A DNA stretch of 8,244 nucleotides from Candidatus Rokuibacteriota bacterium. GTDB lineage: Bacteria > JAUVQV01. The position numbers and the translations under genes are program-made. Below the pieces are notes generated by a model. That model was not told the DNA's origin and did no database searches. It was given only the letters and a program-made list of their open reading frames with translations. Shown one piece after another: positions 2,448-8,244 of the stretch (position 1 is the first letter of the stretch; the number at the start of each line of letters is the position of its first letter). The stretch covers positions 1 through 8,244 of the forward strand of contig JAUVQV010000021.1 in NCBI GenBank assembly GCA_030597995.1, written 5' to 3'.

Positions 2448-2581
2448 ACTACGCTCCCGTGCGAGAAAAACTTTTCCCTCCGTCCTTCTTGAAACCGCCA
2501 GCACTGTGGCGCCGGCTGTTTCCGAAAAGGCGGGGGAGGCACATTTCACCTTTCCGTGTGGGTCTGGTTATGTAAGGCACT

Positions 2582-2610
2582 ATTTTTTCCAGATTTGTCG
2601 CTCCTGTCAA
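2582..2610 (-). promoter_or_regulatory. Putative sigma70-type promoter of the activase gene
   Basis: On the minus strand a perfect -35 box TTGACA (2610-2605) is followed after 17 bp by AAAAAT (2587-2582), which matches 4 of 6 bases of TATAAT. The predicted start is near 2575, giving a leader of about 128 nt before ATG 2447. The match and spacing are seen directly; activity is inferred. Confidence 0.4.
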
Positions 2611-2643
2611 GGTGCTGCTTCACGCGCCGAACCCGGGCCTCCC

Positions 2644-2672
2644 TTGAGGAGGGTGGTGGCCTCTGGTATGCT
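2644..2672 (+). promoter_or_regulatory. Putative extended -10 promoter of the HAD phosphatase gene
   Basis: TTGAGG (2644-2649) and TATGCT (2667-2672) are separated by 17 bp. TG at 2664-2665 gives an extended -10 (TGnTATGCT). With a normal discriminator, +1 falls at 2679, the G of the GTG start codon, so the transcript may be leaderless. Each hexamer matches consensus at 4 of 6 positions. Confidence 0.4.
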
Positions 2673-2678
2673 GCCGGA

Positions 2679-3323
2679 GTGAAAAACGCTATTTGCCACT
2701 GGCTGTTCGACCTCGACAACACACTCTACCCCTCTTCCTGCGGCCTTTTTGACGTCATCGATGAGAGGATAAACCTCTATCTGAAGGAGTTTCTCGGCGT
2801 CCATCCGCGGCAGGCCGACTCCCTGCGGCGAGGCTACTTTGAAAAGTACGGGCTGACACTGGTGGGGTTGATGCGGGAGCGGGATGTCGACCCGGCCCAC
2901 TATATGGAATTCGTGCACCAGGTGCCGCTCGGGGACTACCTCAAACCGAACCCCTCCCTTCCGGCTCTCCTACACTCGATCCCGGTCCCCAAGACGATCT
3001 TCACGAACGGTTCCCGGGGGCACTCCCTGGCGGTCGTCCGGGCCTTGGGGTTGGAGGGTGTCTTCACCGAAATTTACGATATTGCCTCTTTCGGGTACAT
3101 CCCGAAGCCCGATCCTTTGACGTACCGTACGGTCCTCGACCGTCTCGGTCTCAGCGGCCCGGAGGTCGTGCTGGTCGACGACCTGGAAAGGAACCTGTCC
3201 CCGGCCAGAGAACTCGGCATGAAAACCATCTTCGTCGGAGCACACGGGGAGAGCGCGGTGGCGGACTTCTCTCTCTCCTCCCTCGAGGACCTGCCCGTCA
3301 TCCTCCCCCAGCTCCCGCACTGA
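2679..3323 (+). CDS. HAD-superfamily phosphatase, pyrimidine 5'-nucleotidase-like
   Basis: The 214-residue product from GTG 2679 carries all four HAD motifs. Motif I is DLDNT (11-15) with nucleophile D11 and acid/base D13. Motif II is FTNGS with T109. Motif III is K143 in IPKPDP. Motif IV is VDDLERN with D167/D168. The N-terminal form LFDLDNTLYP, the helical cap at roughly 20-90 and the overall length fit the yeast SDT1/SSM1 type of pyrimidine 5'-nucleotidase, which dephosphorylates UMP/CMP-like nucleotides. The exact substrate is inferred from subfamily resemblance. It is cytosolic, with no signal peptide or membrane segment. GTG 2679 was chosen because the HAD fold normally begins a few residues before motif I and the longer frame from ATG 2556 adds an unlikely N-terminus. 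No well-spaced Shine-Dalgarno precedes it; GGAGGG near 2649 is too far upstream. It is divergent from the activase and convergent with the cytochrome operon, so it is probably a single-gene transcript. Confidence 0.9.
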   Translation: MKNAICHWLFDLDNTLYPSSCGLFDVIDERINLYLKEFLGVHPRQADSLRRGYFEKYGLTLVGLMRERDVDPAHYMEFVHQVPLGDYLKPNPSLPALLHSIPVPKTIFTNGSRGHSLAVVRALGLEGVFTEIYDIASFGYIPKPDPLTYRTVLDRLGLSGPEVVLVDDLERNLSPARELGMKTIFVGAHGESAVADFSLSSLEDLPVILPQLPH

Positions 3324-3476: not shown

Positions 3477-5519
3477 TCAGTCGGGGAAATGGTATTTCCG
3501 GTAGCGCTCGATGGTGTCGTTACGGTGACATTCCCGGCAGAAGGCGCGCTCGATAGCGAAGGTGCTGCGGACCCGCAAGAAACTGTTTTCTACGTCGCCT
3601 TCCAGAGGCTGGCCCTCGCCGGAACCGGCGACGTCAGGATCCCAGCGGTGAACATCGTGGCACGAGGCACAGGAGAGATACCCCCGCTGGGCCTTGGCGC
3701 CGTCCGTGGAGTAGAGCTCAAATGCCTGAGGGAGGTCGAGCAGAGACCTCCTCCGGGAGAGAAAGGTCCGCTTGACCATCCCCCGGCCCGGGTAGCGAAC
3801 CAGGTGCGCTGAGAGGCGCGGGGGAACTTTTTCCGCCGCTGTCCGGCCTTCGGAGTGACAGCTGCGGCAGGCGCGGCTCGGCAGGTCCTCCCCCTCTCCG
3901 AGCGGGCGGTTCCAGAGGACAAAGGTGTTGGGCGCCTGGTGGACCTTATGGCAGGCCCCGCAGACCCCGCTCCTCCGAGTTTCCTCACTGTCGAGGTTGA
4001 CGGCGTCGGGAGCGGTGACCCGGAGGTCGTGGTCGGTGCCGATCACGGTGGACTTGTCCTCGTGGCAGGAGGCACAGAGGGGAGAGGGGCCGTCCGACGG
4101 CGAGCGGAGAAAGCTGGTGCCGGACGAGGCCTCCGATGTGGCCGGGTCTCCGGATTCCATTCCGAGCTCCGGGGCCCAGCGGTGCGGGTCATGGCAGGTC
4201 CCGCAGGAGATCTCGTCATCGGACTGCCTCTTCAGCGACAAGGAGAAGACGAGGCGGCTCTTTCTCGCTTCCCGGCGCCGGCTCATGCCGACCGGATGCG
4301 TGTACCGTCCGACCTGAGACTGGGCCGCCATCTTCCCCGCCGCATGGCAAAAGAGGCAGGTCTCCGTCCTCACGCTGTCACTCCCGGTCAGGGGGGCCGG
4401 CCAGAGCAGGGCCGGCTCTTCCCCGTGGGAGCGGTGGCAAGGCCCGCACAGCCCCCCATTCTCCTCCCCACCGGTTCCAGGGGAGAGCATGCCTTCCGGC
4501 CGGAGGAGCGAGAGGTCATGCTTCGTGCCGGCCACTGCGGCCTGTTCGGGATGGCACCCTACGCAGAGTTCGGACCCTGTGCCGGCTGACCTTACGAGAA
4601 AGCTGGTGGTGGCGTCGCCCGGTTTGAGAATGTCCCCTTTCTCTTTCGGGTCGGCCGCGCTCCAGAGGTGAGGATCATGACAGCTGCCGCAACCGACCGG
4701 CTGCACATCCTGTCCCGGGTACCTTGACAATGAGCTCTGCGAGTGGCTCTGTCGCGGCACCAACTTCCCGTGGGCGATTCCTCCCTCCCGGTGGCATTCG
4801 GTACAGAAGGCGGACAACTCATCGCTCTCGCCGCCCAGGAGATTGATCCCCCTCGCCCAGGAGCCCCCCAACCCGCCGCCGTGTGTCGCGTGGCAGGCCC
4901 GGCAGGGACCACTCTTTGAGGCCTCTTCTCCGTACCGGTTCTTCTCATTGGGGAAGTGTAATGAGAGGTCATGCTTGGTCCCGGCCACGGACCCCTGACG
5001 CTGGTGACACCCGAGGCAGAGATCACCACCATCCTCATCCGGCCCTTGCCGGAGAAAATTCCGAGAGCTGCCCCGGTGTACGTCATGGCAGGTCGCGCAG
5101 CTCAACAGCCCCTTTTCAAGCCTCCGGCCGTCCTTCCAGAAGAGCGGCAGATACTCCGGGGAGCCCCTTTTCTCCAGCGAGACCCCCAGGGGATGGTGAA
5201 CCGTACCCGTGAAGCTGGCGATCTTCCCCGGCCCATGGCAGGACCAGCAGACCTTCTCGATCACTGTCGCCCCGATATCCAGATCCCCCACCGCGCCGGT
5301 CCAGCCATGCTCTTTGTGACAGGCCCGGCACACATCAGACCCGAATGACTCTTCGCCCGGGGCCTTCTTTTCCCGGGGTCGGGAAAGACCCAGGTTGTGA
5401 ACCGTGGCCTCCATCCCGGCCTTGTCGGTGTGACAGAGTACACATGAATACACCTTCGGCTCCAGCACCAATCCCGGCGTCCCCGGCTGGCCGTGGTGAG
5501 TGCTGTGACAGGTGACACA
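3477..5519 (-). repeat. Tandem tetrahaem modules within the giant cytochrome
   Basis: Residues 424-563, 564-699, 700-861 and 862-1039 each carry four haem sites in the same order, and 1040-1103 is a partial fifth unit with two. The order in each is a CxxCHxxH site (often CHDPH or CHDVH), then a CxxCH followed by a G-T-(K/D)-H-D-L or V-H-N-L motif, then CxxCHxxHG-like, then CxxCH followed by G-(K/R)-x-A or a similar stretch. Three modules then have an H-P-(V/L)-G or R-Y-P-G motif. Unit lengths are 140, 136, 162 and 178 residues. DNA at 4510-4535 and 4963-4988 (GTKHDL motif) is nearly identical, which supports duplication. Confidence 0.75.
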
Positions 5520-6788
5520 CGTCAGCTCCCCCCGGTCGCCGGTTTCCCCCCCCGCCTCGAGGAAGAGATCCGGGATGACCGCCCGGCGCGGCGCCACGGA
5601 AACCGGTTGGTGGCCGCGGGAGGCCAGCTGAGGATCCTGTGAAGTCTGGGCGGGTTGGCAGTAGTGGCAGAGGGACTGCGTGTTGGCCACCAGAGCCGGC
5701 GTCCCCTCCTGAGCGCCGTGGACCAGGTGACAAGAGAGGCACAGAACCTCCCTCTCCGGCCCCAGATACGCCCCGTGGGCGGTCAATTTTCCGAGGCGCA
5801 CCCCCTGCTCGAGGCTCACCTGCCAACCCAGAGGGTGACTCCACTCTCCGGTACCCGAGATGAGAGAGGAATGGCACCCCGTGCAGAGTTCGTTGTGTTC
5901 CGTAGCCAGGGCGAGCAGGCTTGCCCGGCCCTGGAAAGAAATCGCGTTATGGGCCCGGTGGCACGAGAGACACTCCACCCTCTCCGGGACGCGAGGGTGG
6001 TTTCCCTCCCGCTCCCCCGAGGAAAAGTGCTCCTCGTGGCATTCACGACAGAGAAAACTGCCGGTAGCCTCCTCCTTTAAAAGACCCCAATTGGAGGAGG
6101 CCCAATGAACGGTGTGACATACCACGCAGGTCGGATTCTCCCCGCCGACGGGATGGCTCTCGAGCCCGGGGCCCTTTCCCGCCAAACTGGGATTCTCTCC
6201 ATGGCACTGGGCGCACAAGGCTTCGGCGGAGGTCTCCCGGATCAAGCCCTCTCCCGCAGCCCGGTGGACCACATGACAGCTCCCGCAACCCGGGTCTCCC
6301 CTGCCCCTCGCCATCTTACTGCCACCTCCGGGGGAGGGGTGCTCCCCTTTCTTCCCTCCCCCCCGCCCAGTGTGACAGGCCAGGCAGTACGCGCTGTTGC
6401 TGCTCTCATAACGCATGAAGGGCCGGGCCCCCGGGATCTGCACGTGAGGGTCGTGACAAGTTCCGCAGGTCACGGTCACCCCCCGGCCGGCAGTCGAAGA
6501 CCACGACCCCACCGGATGCTGTCTCCCGAACCAGATCGAGCGCCGCGAATCCAGTACCGGGCCATTGTGACAGCTGTAGCACATCCCGCTGTCCCCGGAG
6601 CCGACCCCCTCCAGGAGAGAGAGAAAATTAAAAGCTCCCGGAGCCGGCTCTTTCTGGATTCTTTCCGGGTGACAGATGCCGCAGCGCGGAGGGAGGCCTG
6701 TCGCGGGCACCTCTTCACCAGAGGCGTACCCCGGCCGCCACAGTCCCAGGAGCGCCACAAAGAGGATGGCGAACCTGCTCGTGGTCAT
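3477..6788 (-). CDS. Giant exported multiheme c-type cytochrome with 29 canonical haem sites
   Basis: The 1103-residue product has a Sec signal peptide (basic start, hydrophobic FAILFVALLGLW, likely cleavage around 22-23 after YAS). After it there are only haem-binding modules. Canonical CxxCH first cysteines are at 36, 70, 108, 135, 168, 192, 221, 247, 273, 302, 350, 424, 449, 487, 514, 564, 591, 629, 662, 700, 742, 781, 811, 862, 905, 943, 974, 1040 and 1084. A thirtieth site is CHYCQ (374-378), which lacks the proximal His. Many sites are CxxCHxxH (doubled-CXXCH style), and about 36 other His residues are enough to ligate every haem bis-His. There is no lipobox, membrane helix or catalytic domain, so a periplasmic or extracellular electron-transfer role is likely. 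Haem numbers of this size are best known in Geobacter-type bacteria. ATG 6788 overlaps the upstream stop (ATGA), with GGAGG directly before it. It is the last visible gene of the operon. Confidence 0.96.
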   Translation of the reverse strand: MTTSRFAILFVALLGLWRPGYASGEEVPATGLPPRCGICHPERIQKEPAPGAFNFLSLLEGVGSGDSGMCYSCHNGPVLDSRRSIWFGRQHPVGSWSSTAGRGVTVTCGTCHDPHVQIPGARPFMRYESSNSAYCLACHTGRGGGKKGEHPSPGGGSKMARGRGDPGCGSCHVVHRAAGEGLIRETSAEALCAQCHGENPSLAGKGPGLESHPVGGENPTCVVCHTVHWASSNWGLLKEEATGSFLCRECHEEHFSSGEREGNHPRVPERVECLSCHRAHNAISFQGRASLLALATEHNELCTGCHSSLISGTGEWSHPLGWQVSLEQGVRLGKLTAHGAYLGPEREVLCLSCHLVHGAQEGTPALVANTQSLCHYCQPAQTSQDPQLASRGHQPVSVAPRRAVIPDLFLEAGGETGDRGELTCVTCHSTHHGQPGTPGLVLEPKVYSCVLCHTDKAGMEATVHNLGLSRPREKKAPGEESFGSDVCRACHKEHGWTGAVGDLDIGATVIEKVCWSCHGPGKIASFTGTVHHPLGVSLEKRGSPEYLPLFWKDGRRLEKGLLSCATCHDVHRGSSRNFLRQGPDEDGGDLCLGCHQRQGSVAGTKHDLSLHFPNEKNRYGEEASKSGPCRACHATHGGGLGGSWARGINLLGGESDELSAFCTECHREGGIAHGKLVPRQSHSQSSLSRYPGQDVQPVGCGSCHDPHLWSAADPKEKGDILKPGDATTSFLVRSAGTGSELCVGCHPEQAAVAGTKHDLSLLRPEGMLSPGTGGEENGGLCGPCHRSHGEEPALLWPAPLTGSDSVRTETCLFCHAAGKMAAQSQVGRYTHPVGMSRRREARKSRLVFSLSLKRQSDDEISCGTCHDPHRWAPELGMESGDPATSEASSGTSFLRSPSDGPSPLCASCHEDKSTVIGTDHDLRVTAPDAVNLDSEETRRSGVCGACHKVHQAPNTFVLWNRPLGEGEDLPSRACRSCHSEGRTAAEKVPPRLSAHLVRYPGRGMVKRTFLSRRRSLLDLPQAFELYSTDGAKAQRGYLSCASCHDVHRWDPDVAGSGEGQPLEGDVENSFLRVRSTFAIERAFCRECHRNDTIERYRKYHFPD

Positions 6789-6991
6789 TCCTCCAGTGCT
6801 CTTTTGAAAAGATAATATGCTCCCTTGACTTCACCCTGGCTGGTGGTAAAAGGAACAATACCGACCAGCTCCCACCCTTCTCTCCCTGCCCTGTTGAGAC
6901 GCGAGAGGTCGAGCCCGGATTTCGGCATACCCCCGAAAATGTCAGGATGCGCTACGTACACCTGGCCGTACTCCCACTTGCTCTGTGCCAT
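6785..6991 (-). CDS. Small DUF4177-like protein
   Basis: The 68-residue product has the DUF4177-type pattern: an N-terminal W-E-Y-x-x-V-Y strand, then LNRAGREGWELVGIVPF (residues 32-48) and a closing YYLFKR strand. The core is the conserved L-N-x-x-G-x-x-G-W-E-L-V element. There is no signal peptide, Cys or haem site, so it is probably cytosolic. The family's function is not established. An excellent Shine-Dalgarno (GGAGGTGG, plus-strand 6998-7005) lies six bases before ATG 6991, in contrast to the weak signals of its neighbours. Its TGA overlaps the ATG of the giant cytochrome (6785-6788), which suggests coupled translation. It starts 56 bp after the NHL gene ends. A role in cytochrome production or regulation is inferred from position only. 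Confidence 0.82.
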   Translation of the reverse strand: MAQSKWEYGQVYVAHPDIFGGMPKSGLDLSRLNRAGREGWELVGIVPFTTSQGEVKGAYYLFKRALEE

Positions 6992-7047: not shown

Positions 7048-8055
7048 TTACCGGATTATTTCAAGCCCTTTCACCCGGCTCTTTCCCATCTCCAGAACAA
7101 ATATTATCTGATCCCGGACGGCGAGGCTGACCGGATTTTTCAGAACCAGGGGCTGCTGATCCTGACCGCAGAGAACACCCTGATACCTCCCCTGGAAATC
7201 GAATACCTGCAACGATCCGAGATAATTGTCCCCTACCAGGAGAAGATCCTCAGCCAGCACCGCCAGTCCGGCGGGCCGGAAAAGGGTCCCCTCGCTCACC
7301 CCGAACTCTCCGAACGTCAAGAGCGGATTCCCCTTGGGAGTGAAAATCTGGATCCGGCTGTTGAGGGTGTCGGCCACGATTATCCGGCCGGGATCATCCT
7401 GGACCACCCGGAAGGGGTAACGGAGCCCCTGCGGCCCCTCTCCCAACTCTCCCCATCGTCTGAGGGGCTGCCCCTTTAAATCAAAAACCCGGATCTGGTG
7501 CGCCGCGCTGTCCACCACGTAACATTCTCCCCGGGAAACGAGTATCCCGACCGGTCTCGAGGGCTCGTCACCCTCGCCGGTCTCGAACTCTTTCACCACG
7601 TGCCCTTGCAGGTCGGTGACGAGAACTCTCCCCCCCCCGGAGTCCGCCAGAAAGATCCGGTCGGCCCCCCCCAGTCCCATCCCGAGATAGGAGACCTCCC
7701 TGCCACCGGGAGTTTTCACGGCTCTCTTAAAACGGCCCCCGAGATCGTAGACCGCCACCCTCCCGTTGAGATCATCCAGGACATAGAGGAGGTTTTCATG
7801 AACCAGGATGTCCGAGGGCTGGCGGAGCGGAACTCCTCCCGCTTCCCGGATCTCGAAAGTCTCTCTCACCATCCAGCACTTTGCCGGGGCCGGGGCCGCC
7901 GGGGAGACCAGGGGCATCCAGAGAGGGAGCGCGGCGGTCAGGAAGGCCACCCTCACCGCCCTGGACCACTCGACCCGGCGGAGAGACGATAACGCCCGCA
8001 CCCGGTCCCCGTGACCCCCCCGGAGAGGTCCGGCATCTGAAGCGGGACCCTTCAT
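7048..8055 (-). CDS. Exported NHL-repeat six-bladed beta-propeller protein
   Basis: From ATG 8055 the product is 335 residues. After an Arg-rich start comes a hydrophobic export segment (about 35-50, VAFLTAALPLW) and an Ala/Pro cleavage zone (about 51-58). The mature part has six NHL-type blades near 80-109, 123-151, 167-196, 213-242, 259-290 and 307-333. The blade signature is P-x-x-(I/L)-x-V...hydrophobic-V-x-D-x-x-x-x-R-(I/V)-x-V-(Y/F)-(D/T)-x-x-G. There are no haem sites and no catalytic residues are recognised. NHL propellers are protein- or ligand-binding platforms, and exported ones are often encoded beside multihaem cytochromes in metal-reducing bacteria, where a scaffold role is inferred. 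The frame opens at GTG 8205, but that overlaps the preceding gene, whose TGA is at 8061-8063. ATG 8055 (or GTG 8058) lies just after that stop. GTG 8004 (codon 18 from the ATG) is an alternative that would give a tighter signal peptide. No clear Shine-Dalgarno is seen, which suggests coupling to the upstream gene. Confidence 0.88.
   Translation of the reverse strand: MKGPASDAGPLRGGHGDRVRALSSLRRVEWSRAVRVAFLTAALPLWMPLVSPAAPAPAKCWMVRETFEIREAGGVPLRQPSDILVHENLLYVLDDLNGRVAVYDLGGRFKRAVKTPGGREVSYLGMGLGGADRIFLADSGGGRVLVTDLQGHVVKEFETGEGDEPSRPVGILVSRGECYVVDSAAHQIRVFDLKGQPLRRWGELGEGPQGLRYPFRVVQDDPGRIIVADTLNSRIQIFTPKGNPLLTFGEFGVSEGTLFRPAGLAVLAEDLLLVGDNYLGSLQVFDFQGRYQGVLCGQDQQPLVLKNPVSLAVRDQIIFVLEMGKSRVKGLEIIR
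7630..7638. repeat. C9 homopolymer tract inside the NHL gene
   Basis: Nine C on the plus strand read as G9 in the NHL gene, encoding Gly-Gly-Gly (140-142) in the second blade. The frame is intact. It is a second slippage-prone tract in the window, equal in length to the one in the activase. A C8 tract (5546-5553) lies in the cytochrome gene. Confidence 0.8.
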
Positions 8056-8060
8056 CACGG

Positions 8061-8244
8061 TCAACGAATGTGCGGAAAATACCACTTGGCCCCCGGGGGG
8101 AGAGTGTAATACTCTTCGAGCACTTCCAGCCGCGCCCTCTGCTCCGGTGTGGTCCCGGCGCGGACGTATTTTTTCAATCCATCGCGTCGGTGGCAAGCGG
8201 CGCACTTCGGCCCGCGGTCGAAACAGGGCTGCTTTCGTACCACC
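8061..8244 (-). CDS. 3' end of a c-type cytochrome gene, N-terminus beyond window
   Basis: The frame enters from the right edge and ends with TGA at 8061-8063, giving 61 visible residues. There is one haem-binding CAACH (residues 14-18 counted from codon 8243-8241) and another Cys seven residues earlier. A basic and acidic helical stretch (PEQRARLEVLEEYY) and a short tail ending FPHIR follow. A GTG lies at 8243-8241, but a start there would leave a haem protein without a signal peptide, so this is more likely the C-terminus of a longer exported cytochrome. The stop is five bases before ATG 8055 of the NHL gene, so the two are almost certainly co-transcribed. Total haem number and length cannot be judged. 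Confidence 0.65.
   Translation of the reverse strand, partial: VVRKQPCFDRGPKCAACHRRDGLKKYVRAGTTPEQRARLEVLEEYYTLPPGAKWYFPHIR

Follow-up and report, generated by a model that had tools for sequence, protein, structure and literature searches.

The 8,244-nucleotide stretch of DNA analysed here (the window), positions 1 to 8,244 of contig JAUVQV010000021.1 of a Candidatus Rokuibacteriota bacterium, which it appears to fill entirely, carries on its minus strand a gene for a cytochrome with 29 haem sites. We tentatively propose, giving it slightly less than an even chance, that the product is a monomeric electron wire composed of four OmcE-like tetrahaem units end to end, which are fused to an MtrA/DmsE-like part with 14 haem sites. 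The number of sites, the repeated modules, the conservation across the family, the distribution of His and the genes next to those of the relatives were read directly from the sequences, and from these we infer where in the cell the wire cytochrome would reside and how it would function.

Haem sites and tetrahaem modules

The gene was assigned as an open reading frame (ORF) from ATG. Its 1103-residue product contains 29 CxxCH sites, one per 38 residues, which agrees with the count in the first-pass annotation of this DNA, where no strand was given; in 2000 shuffles of the protein's own residues, such sites numbered 0.2 on average and at most 3. The 60 Cys residues form 30 pairs, 29 in CxxCH and one in CHYCQ (residues 374-378), the latter absent from the first-pass annotation. 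The protein has 66 His residues, 37 of which lie outside CxxCH. The first-pass annotation had counted about 36 and supposed bis-His ligation throughout, which was nearly right; a His follows every haem except haem 1. The N-terminus resembles a signal peptide, and simple scans found no lipobox pattern within the first 40 residues and no membrane stretch in the protein. The features of the gene, all on the minus strand, are as follows.

3477..6788, minus: gene for the putative 29-haem wire cytochrome (30-haem in its family), ORF from ATG, 1103 residues
6720..6788, minus: putative signal peptide, about residues 1-23, ending near YASG/EE, judged by eye
6669..6683, minus: haem site 1, residues 36-40, the sole haem without a His before the next site
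5424..6683, minus: N-terminal part, sites 1-14, residues 36-455, two-haem repeats, leaning to MtrA/DmsE
6414..6416, minus: Met125, the only column with at least 80% Met in the 30-haem family alignments
5655..5669, minus: degenerate haem site 12, CHYCQ, residues 374-378, CxxCH in 28 of 28 aligned relatives
5607..5609, minus: Gln394 in place of a conserved His, which is His in 28 of 29 aligned sequences
5001..5423, minus: tetrahaem module M1, residues 456-596, from the module split of the C-terminal part
4548..5000, minus: tetrahaem module M2, residues 597-747, module split and leave-one-out hidden Markov model (HMM)
4059..4547, minus: tetrahaem module M3, residues 748-910, module split and leave-one-out HMM
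3480..4058, minus: tetrahaem module M4 with the C-terminal tail, residues 911-1103, module split and leave-one-out HMM
3489..3491, minus: His1100, within the C-terminal tail, the same residue in all 29 aligned sequences and suggested to cap the last haem

The C-terminal 648 residues were divided into four tetrahaem modules (haems 15-30 by the family numbering). When an HMM was built from three modules and used to score the fourth, the scores were 62.1, 80.3, 85.3 and 89.0 bits, as compared with best scores of 32.1, 25.8, 38.5 and 38.5 bits in shuffles which kept all Cys and His fixed (4 x 500). These values bear out the claim of at least four consecutive tetrahaem modules, and the order of motifs that had been given for the module agrees with the sequence. 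The first-pass annotation had added a half module; its counterpart is the related two-haem repeats seen by eye in the N-terminal 14-site part.

A profile search for the module, suggested in the first-pass annotation as a check, was run with 15 modules (four from the window, four each from relatives at loci L001 and L003, and three from L009) against 177,635 distinct PDB sequences, and gave 32 matches at E 0.01. The best match was 9yuq_N (1.4e-10) and the second was 7tfs_A, which is OmcE (2.9e-9), followed by a reaction centre cytochrome (2.8e-6) and OmcS (3.4e-6); MtrA ranked lower (3e-4). Judging from its alignment and its 16 identical chains, 9yuq is probably an OmcE-like chain. The two leading matches thus favour the earlier suggestion of a modular haem wire akin to known nanowire units. 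OmcE and 9yuq share with the modules TKHDL, CxxCHxxH, W, CxxCH, HP, LPLF, C-S-CHxVH and LCxxCH in the same order, the HP stretch being visible in the 9yuq alignments and absent from the printed OmcE alignments. OmcE is a single tetrahaem subunit, whereas the window protein holds four such units, the 14-site part and a C-terminal His in one chain.

Haem numbers, His pattern and the N-terminal part in the family

A protein search scored 7995 candidates, 452 of them at E <=0.001, and the best 120 of these 452, including the window protein, were used for counting. Sixteen of the 120 begin very near their first site and are probably fragments. Many full-length relatives, from P0002 to P0037, are 44-51% identical to the window protein. 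The 24-, 28- and 30-haem classes together comprise 98 of the 120 listed proteins (49, 14 and 35, respectively). According to the module model, 24 haems consist of four modules and the 8 haems that come ahead of the first strong one (47 of 49 listed), 28 haems consist of 8 plus five modules (all 14), and 30 haems consist of 14 plus four modules (29 of 35), the remaining 6 having three strong modules with 14 haems ahead. A rule of 8 or 14 plus four per module therefore describes 90 of the 98. Single listed proteins have 32 haems (8 plus six modules) and 34 haems (14 plus five modules); a 35-haem protein breaks the rule, and 18 further listed relatives have 17 to 27 haems. Relatives in the gene loci described below, divided by eye, gave 6 + 12 for 18 haems and 6 + 16 for 22 haems.

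Sampling by phylum gave few matches. In the phylum of genome G001, 2 of 247 sampled genomes matched at E <=1e-100 (the centre itself and G027), neither of which was seen as the 30-haem class; in that of G003, queried with P0071, 1 of 398 matched, which was the centre itself. The 0 of 9 obtained in the phylum of G002 is uninformative, the threshold being missed even by G002's own match (1.9e-47). Separately, L001 and L003 carry two distinct wire genes (24 and 22 sites) of one assembly (JAUXEW01, CSMAG_2887), each after its own NHL gene, and at L019, in another genome, a wire-like frame is broken by one TAA into two ORFs (18 + 10 sites).

In 88 of the 98 listed proteins (33 of the 35 with 30 haems, 12 of the 14 with 28 and 43 of the 49 with 24), haem 1 is the only haem without a following His. 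At the other end, the last haem has a His after it in 97 of the 98, and in 118 of all 120 when the window protein is counted in. No His was found between residue 21 and the first CxxCH in 86 of the 98; it is present in 12, which is also the number among all 120, and 7 of the 98 start too near the first site for its absence to be a test. The window protein has the tail His and no His ahead of its first site. Eleven residues after each module-ending haem site but the last, and after the site before M1, comes the His of an HDL or HNL motif; His1100 stands 12 residues after the last site.

This pattern can be compared with that of OmcE, whose sequence in the alignments has TKHDL near the start and ends at LCLGCHK. 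In the OmcE and OmcS filaments a His is described as reaching into the neighbouring subunit (PMC9473688), and one haem of OmcE as being ligated by the neighbouring subunit's His (PMC9473688, PMC12954529). The donor arm of OmcE is probably its free N-terminal His. In OmcE, then, the N-terminal His would be free to act as donor and the last haem would lack a His within its own subunit; the window protein appears to have neither feature. Because of the tail His and the lack of an N-terminal His, the chain looks closed on itself, and the reach of a His between subunits may have been turned into a reach between modules of a capped chain. The first-pass annotation had considered the protein possibly a polymer, which the two counts do not support. 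Since the modules are OmcE-like, the haem numbers mostly obey the above rule and the His residues are so distributed, the protein looks more like OmcE-type units fused and capped than like a polymer.

The N-terminal part was analysed with a profile of the window protein and 28 full-length relatives, hand-chosen from those listed (alignment A2). In the PDB the profile matched MtrA (6r2q_A) at E 5.7e-15, positions 54-283 of the profile aligning with 118-327 of MtrA, and further matched 9yuq (6.2e-10), OmcE (6.2e-9) and 3ov0, which is GSU1996 (1.7e-6). The table gives the molecule name of 6r2q_A as 'cystathionine beta-synthase', and the entry title is 'Structure of the Mtr complex'. The DmsE model (TIGR03508), the best decahaem model in NCBIfam for the window protein, scored 85 bits with the N-terminal part, 48 bits with the C-terminal part and 114.5 bits with the whole protein. 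An ordinary member of the MtrA/DmsE family was rejected, the whole-protein score lying far under the cut-off of 192.2 and the protein having 29 sites, about three times the haems of MtrA/DmsE, instead of ten haems. An ordinary OmcA/MtrC member (TIGR03507) was likewise rejected with 55.0 bits against a cut-off of 209.3. Met125, in this part, is conserved in 29 of 29 aligned sequences and in all 35 listed proteins of the 30-haem class, and in that class only; one might speculate that it is the axial ligand of one haem.

Some findings run counter to the proposal. A single-sequence search with the N-terminal part put OmcE (1.1e-4) and 9yuq (5.6e-4) at the top of a list that did not include MtrA, and the leaning of this part to MtrA thus rests on the profile and the DmsE model. 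A Foldseek search with a model of the C-terminal part returned just four unrelated chains at E 4.5 or worse; support from modelling for an OmcE-type fold and haem packing is mixed. In addition, a review describes haem 2 of OmcE as the one ligated from the next subunit (PMC12203936), which does not match the assignment made here.

The N-terminal part of the window protein has 13 intact sites out of 14. All 30 sites are CxxCH in the 28 aligned relatives, and the window protein is the sole departure, at site 12. Four changes are found around this one haem pocket (5607-5669, minus) in the window protein alone: besides CHYCQ and Gln394, His375 and His393 are matched by no His in any of the 28 relatives. 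The codons are TGC CAC TAC TGC CAA at site 12 and GGC CAC CAA CCG around residue 394. The joint disappearance of two conserved His residues near site 12 is most simply read as one lost haem; a sequencing fault is conceivable and would need several separate changes. Two apparent degenerate sites, in P0050 and P0060, fall close to the N-terminus (within 32 residues) and were discounted as noise from the signal peptide.

Gene neighbourhood and alternative explanations

The wire gene is directly preceded by a gene for an NHL beta-propeller protein with a signal-like stretch (7048..8205, minus; start codon uncertain). Ten loci from genome contigs (L001-L010) were compared, and in eight of them (L001, L002, L003, L005, L006, L008, L009 and L010) the wire gene likewise has an ORF homologous to this NHL protein immediately upstream; the NHL ORF of L001 is itself preceded by a 5-haem gene. 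The NHL gene is farther off within the cluster in L004, and only 465 bases are available upstream in L007. The eight homologues matched the window NHL protein at E ~5e-33 or better; weaker matches to it were the NHL protein of L004 (1e-21) and a further one of L009 (5e-13). Further upstream, a 3-haem ORF was found in 8 of the 10 loci (L006 is cut and L007 has no room); an ORF resembling a membrane protein and one with 6 or 7 haems (8 in L004) are also present. In L001, L004 and L009, the loci whose proteins were scanned, the membrane protein is a cytochrome b561 (PF01292). Downstream of the 18-haem wire gene of L009, the locus in which these genes were scanned for families, lie the following genes.

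9980-11755, plus: 14-haem cytochrome with a Glucodextran_B-like domain
11861-12919, plus: redoxin-TPR protein
13328-15797, minus: second NHL protein beside a 10-haem cytochrome

L005, L006 and L010 contain ORFs similar to these in length and in number of haems.

Among the alternatives, a periplasmic electron store (capacitor), which would be charged and discharged without bridging, is unlikely. The models would be GSU1996 (12 haems) and GSU2210 (27 haems) of Geobacter, which share with the window protein many haems in one exported chain and a proposed role as a wire or capacitor. Similar size and haem number, the lack of a detected anchor or lipobox, and the presence of 3ov0 among the matches of the family profile speak for such a store, and periplasmic 'nanowires of hemes' of Geobacter have been proposed to act in this way (PMC10138318). 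However, GSU1996 is made of trihaem domains, each of which contains one His-Met haem, whereas the present protein has a four-haem repeat and the 30-haem class a single conserved Met; GSU1996-type trihaem repeats were rejected because of the four-haem period. Moreover, OmcE-type chains were the best matches of the module profile, and 3ov0 was not among its 32.

It is quite unlikely that the protein belongs to a porin-cytochrome conduit of the PCC3 kind, as its periplasm-spanning or its extracellular cytochrome. PCC3 cytochromes of iron-oxidising bacteria resemble the window protein in their very many haems and few residues per haem; in Gallionellaceae the periplasmic ones are reported to have 21, 24 or 27 (PMC5566968, PMC10734462), long linear models have been proposed for them (PMC10734462), and two 24-haem homologues found here (P0071 and P0101) carry the names Thiobacillus and Gallionellaceae. 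A PCC3 cluster consists of a porin, extracellular and periplasmic multihaem cytochromes and an inner membrane protein with five transmembrane segments. The relatives' loci encode several c cytochromes and a membrane protein of the cytochrome b561 type. Scans of 6 proteins in L001, 4 in L004 and 10 in L009, and of the other genes of the window, whose contig ends past the NHL gene, recognised no porin family. The haem numbers here also step by four, and the likeness to PCC3 is drawn from published descriptions.

An extracellular filament, in which subunits polymerise end to end as in OmcE, is still harder to credit. The OmcE-like modules and the signal peptide-like start would suit it, and haem 1, which lacks its own His, could take one from another subunit. 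Against this, the counts of tail and N-terminal His leave no obvious donor arm, and the length is mostly fixed in four-haem steps. A polymer of another kind stays conceivable because OmcZ is described as polymerising without shared ligands (PMC9473688).

A terminal reductase or oxidase with haem 1 as its active site and the remainder as a feed wire is very improbable: family-model scans of the window protein gave no enzyme family at curated cut-offs, the His pattern suits a plain entry or exit haem equally well, and the region around haem 1 is poorly predicted. The scans also led us to reject an enzyme as the principal explanation, in line with the first-pass annotation, which had favoured a wire over an enzyme.

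L004, with its NHL, 11-haem and 3-haem genes, resembles in gene content the Uet cluster, which comprises the undecahaem UetJ, the NHL proteins UetHI and the trihaem UetDEG. Uet differs from the wire loci in having an 11- or 12-haem cytochrome plus a porin (PMC10734462). OetABI, OmcKL and OmcX of syntrophic sulfate reducers (PMC10553843) and clusters of D. ferrophilus (PMC9769857) were considered by description only.

On the other side of the wire gene, the window contains a partial gene for a 2-hydroxyacyl-CoA dehydratase activase (3-2549, minus; 849 residues, most listed relatives having about 1400), whose relatives are named Latescibacteria, Deltaproteobacteria, Thermodesulfobacteriota, Syntrophaceae and others. 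Two of the best-matching relatives are on contigs of the same size as those of the wire relatives P0004 and P0039 (40,662 and 10,538 bases), and the equal sizes suggest that the linkage of wire and activase genes is shared among relatives. Between them, a HAD hydrolase gene (2556-3323, plus), which scored above the NCBIfam cut-off for pyrimidine 5'-nucleotidase, is convergent with the wire gene. Long antisense open frames (1191-2492 and 6105-6815, both plus) are expected at 63% G+C and were not taken as genes.

Proposed electron path and its meaning

In the proposed monomeric wire, the module-opening His of TKHDL would ligate the last haem of the preceding module, as the His of another subunit does in OmcE filaments. 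His1100 would ligate the last haem and close the chain, which would prevent polymerisation by that route. Haem 1, without its own His, is likely to be a contact end or an odd site (His-Met or open). Electrons would travel between two ends: a cytochrome b561/c cassette on the quinone side, at the inner membrane, and a partner that sits at the outer membrane or farther out.

The rise of the OmcE filament is given as 34 Å per subunit (PMC12954529). At 8.5 Å per haem, 24 to 34 haems would span about 204 to 289 Å, close to the quoted periplasmic width; MtrA is described as too short for a periplasm of ~200 Å (PMC7096707). With such a length, and with quinone-side cytochromes next to it, the wire would suit a role in bridging the periplasm, as has been proposed by others for PCC3 cytochromes (PMC5566968, PMC10734462). 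A broader idea, which we consider doubtful, is that the family represents a gene-encoded nanowire: OmcE-type subunits fused head to tail into a capped, insulated single molecule, whose length is set in four-haem steps to match the periplasm, no diffusing shuttle being needed to bring electrons from the quinone side at the inner membrane to the outer one. In that case the natural loss of two conserved His at site 12 would serve as a built-in test of how the wire copes with a missing haem.

Large multihaem cytochromes, with up to 86 motifs, are already known (PMC12133095). The present analysis adds a unit tied to OmcE, a four-haem length rule, a capped end with an orphan first haem, and a natural site loss; no description of tandem-fused OmcE-type units was found in the open-licence literature searched. 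The build of very large multihaem cytochromes is often unclear, and here the number of haems mostly obeys a simple rule. If the proposal is true, the family would provide a soluble single-chain nanowire open to unit-by-unit study. Electron transport across the whole periplasm by one protein would then become directly testable.

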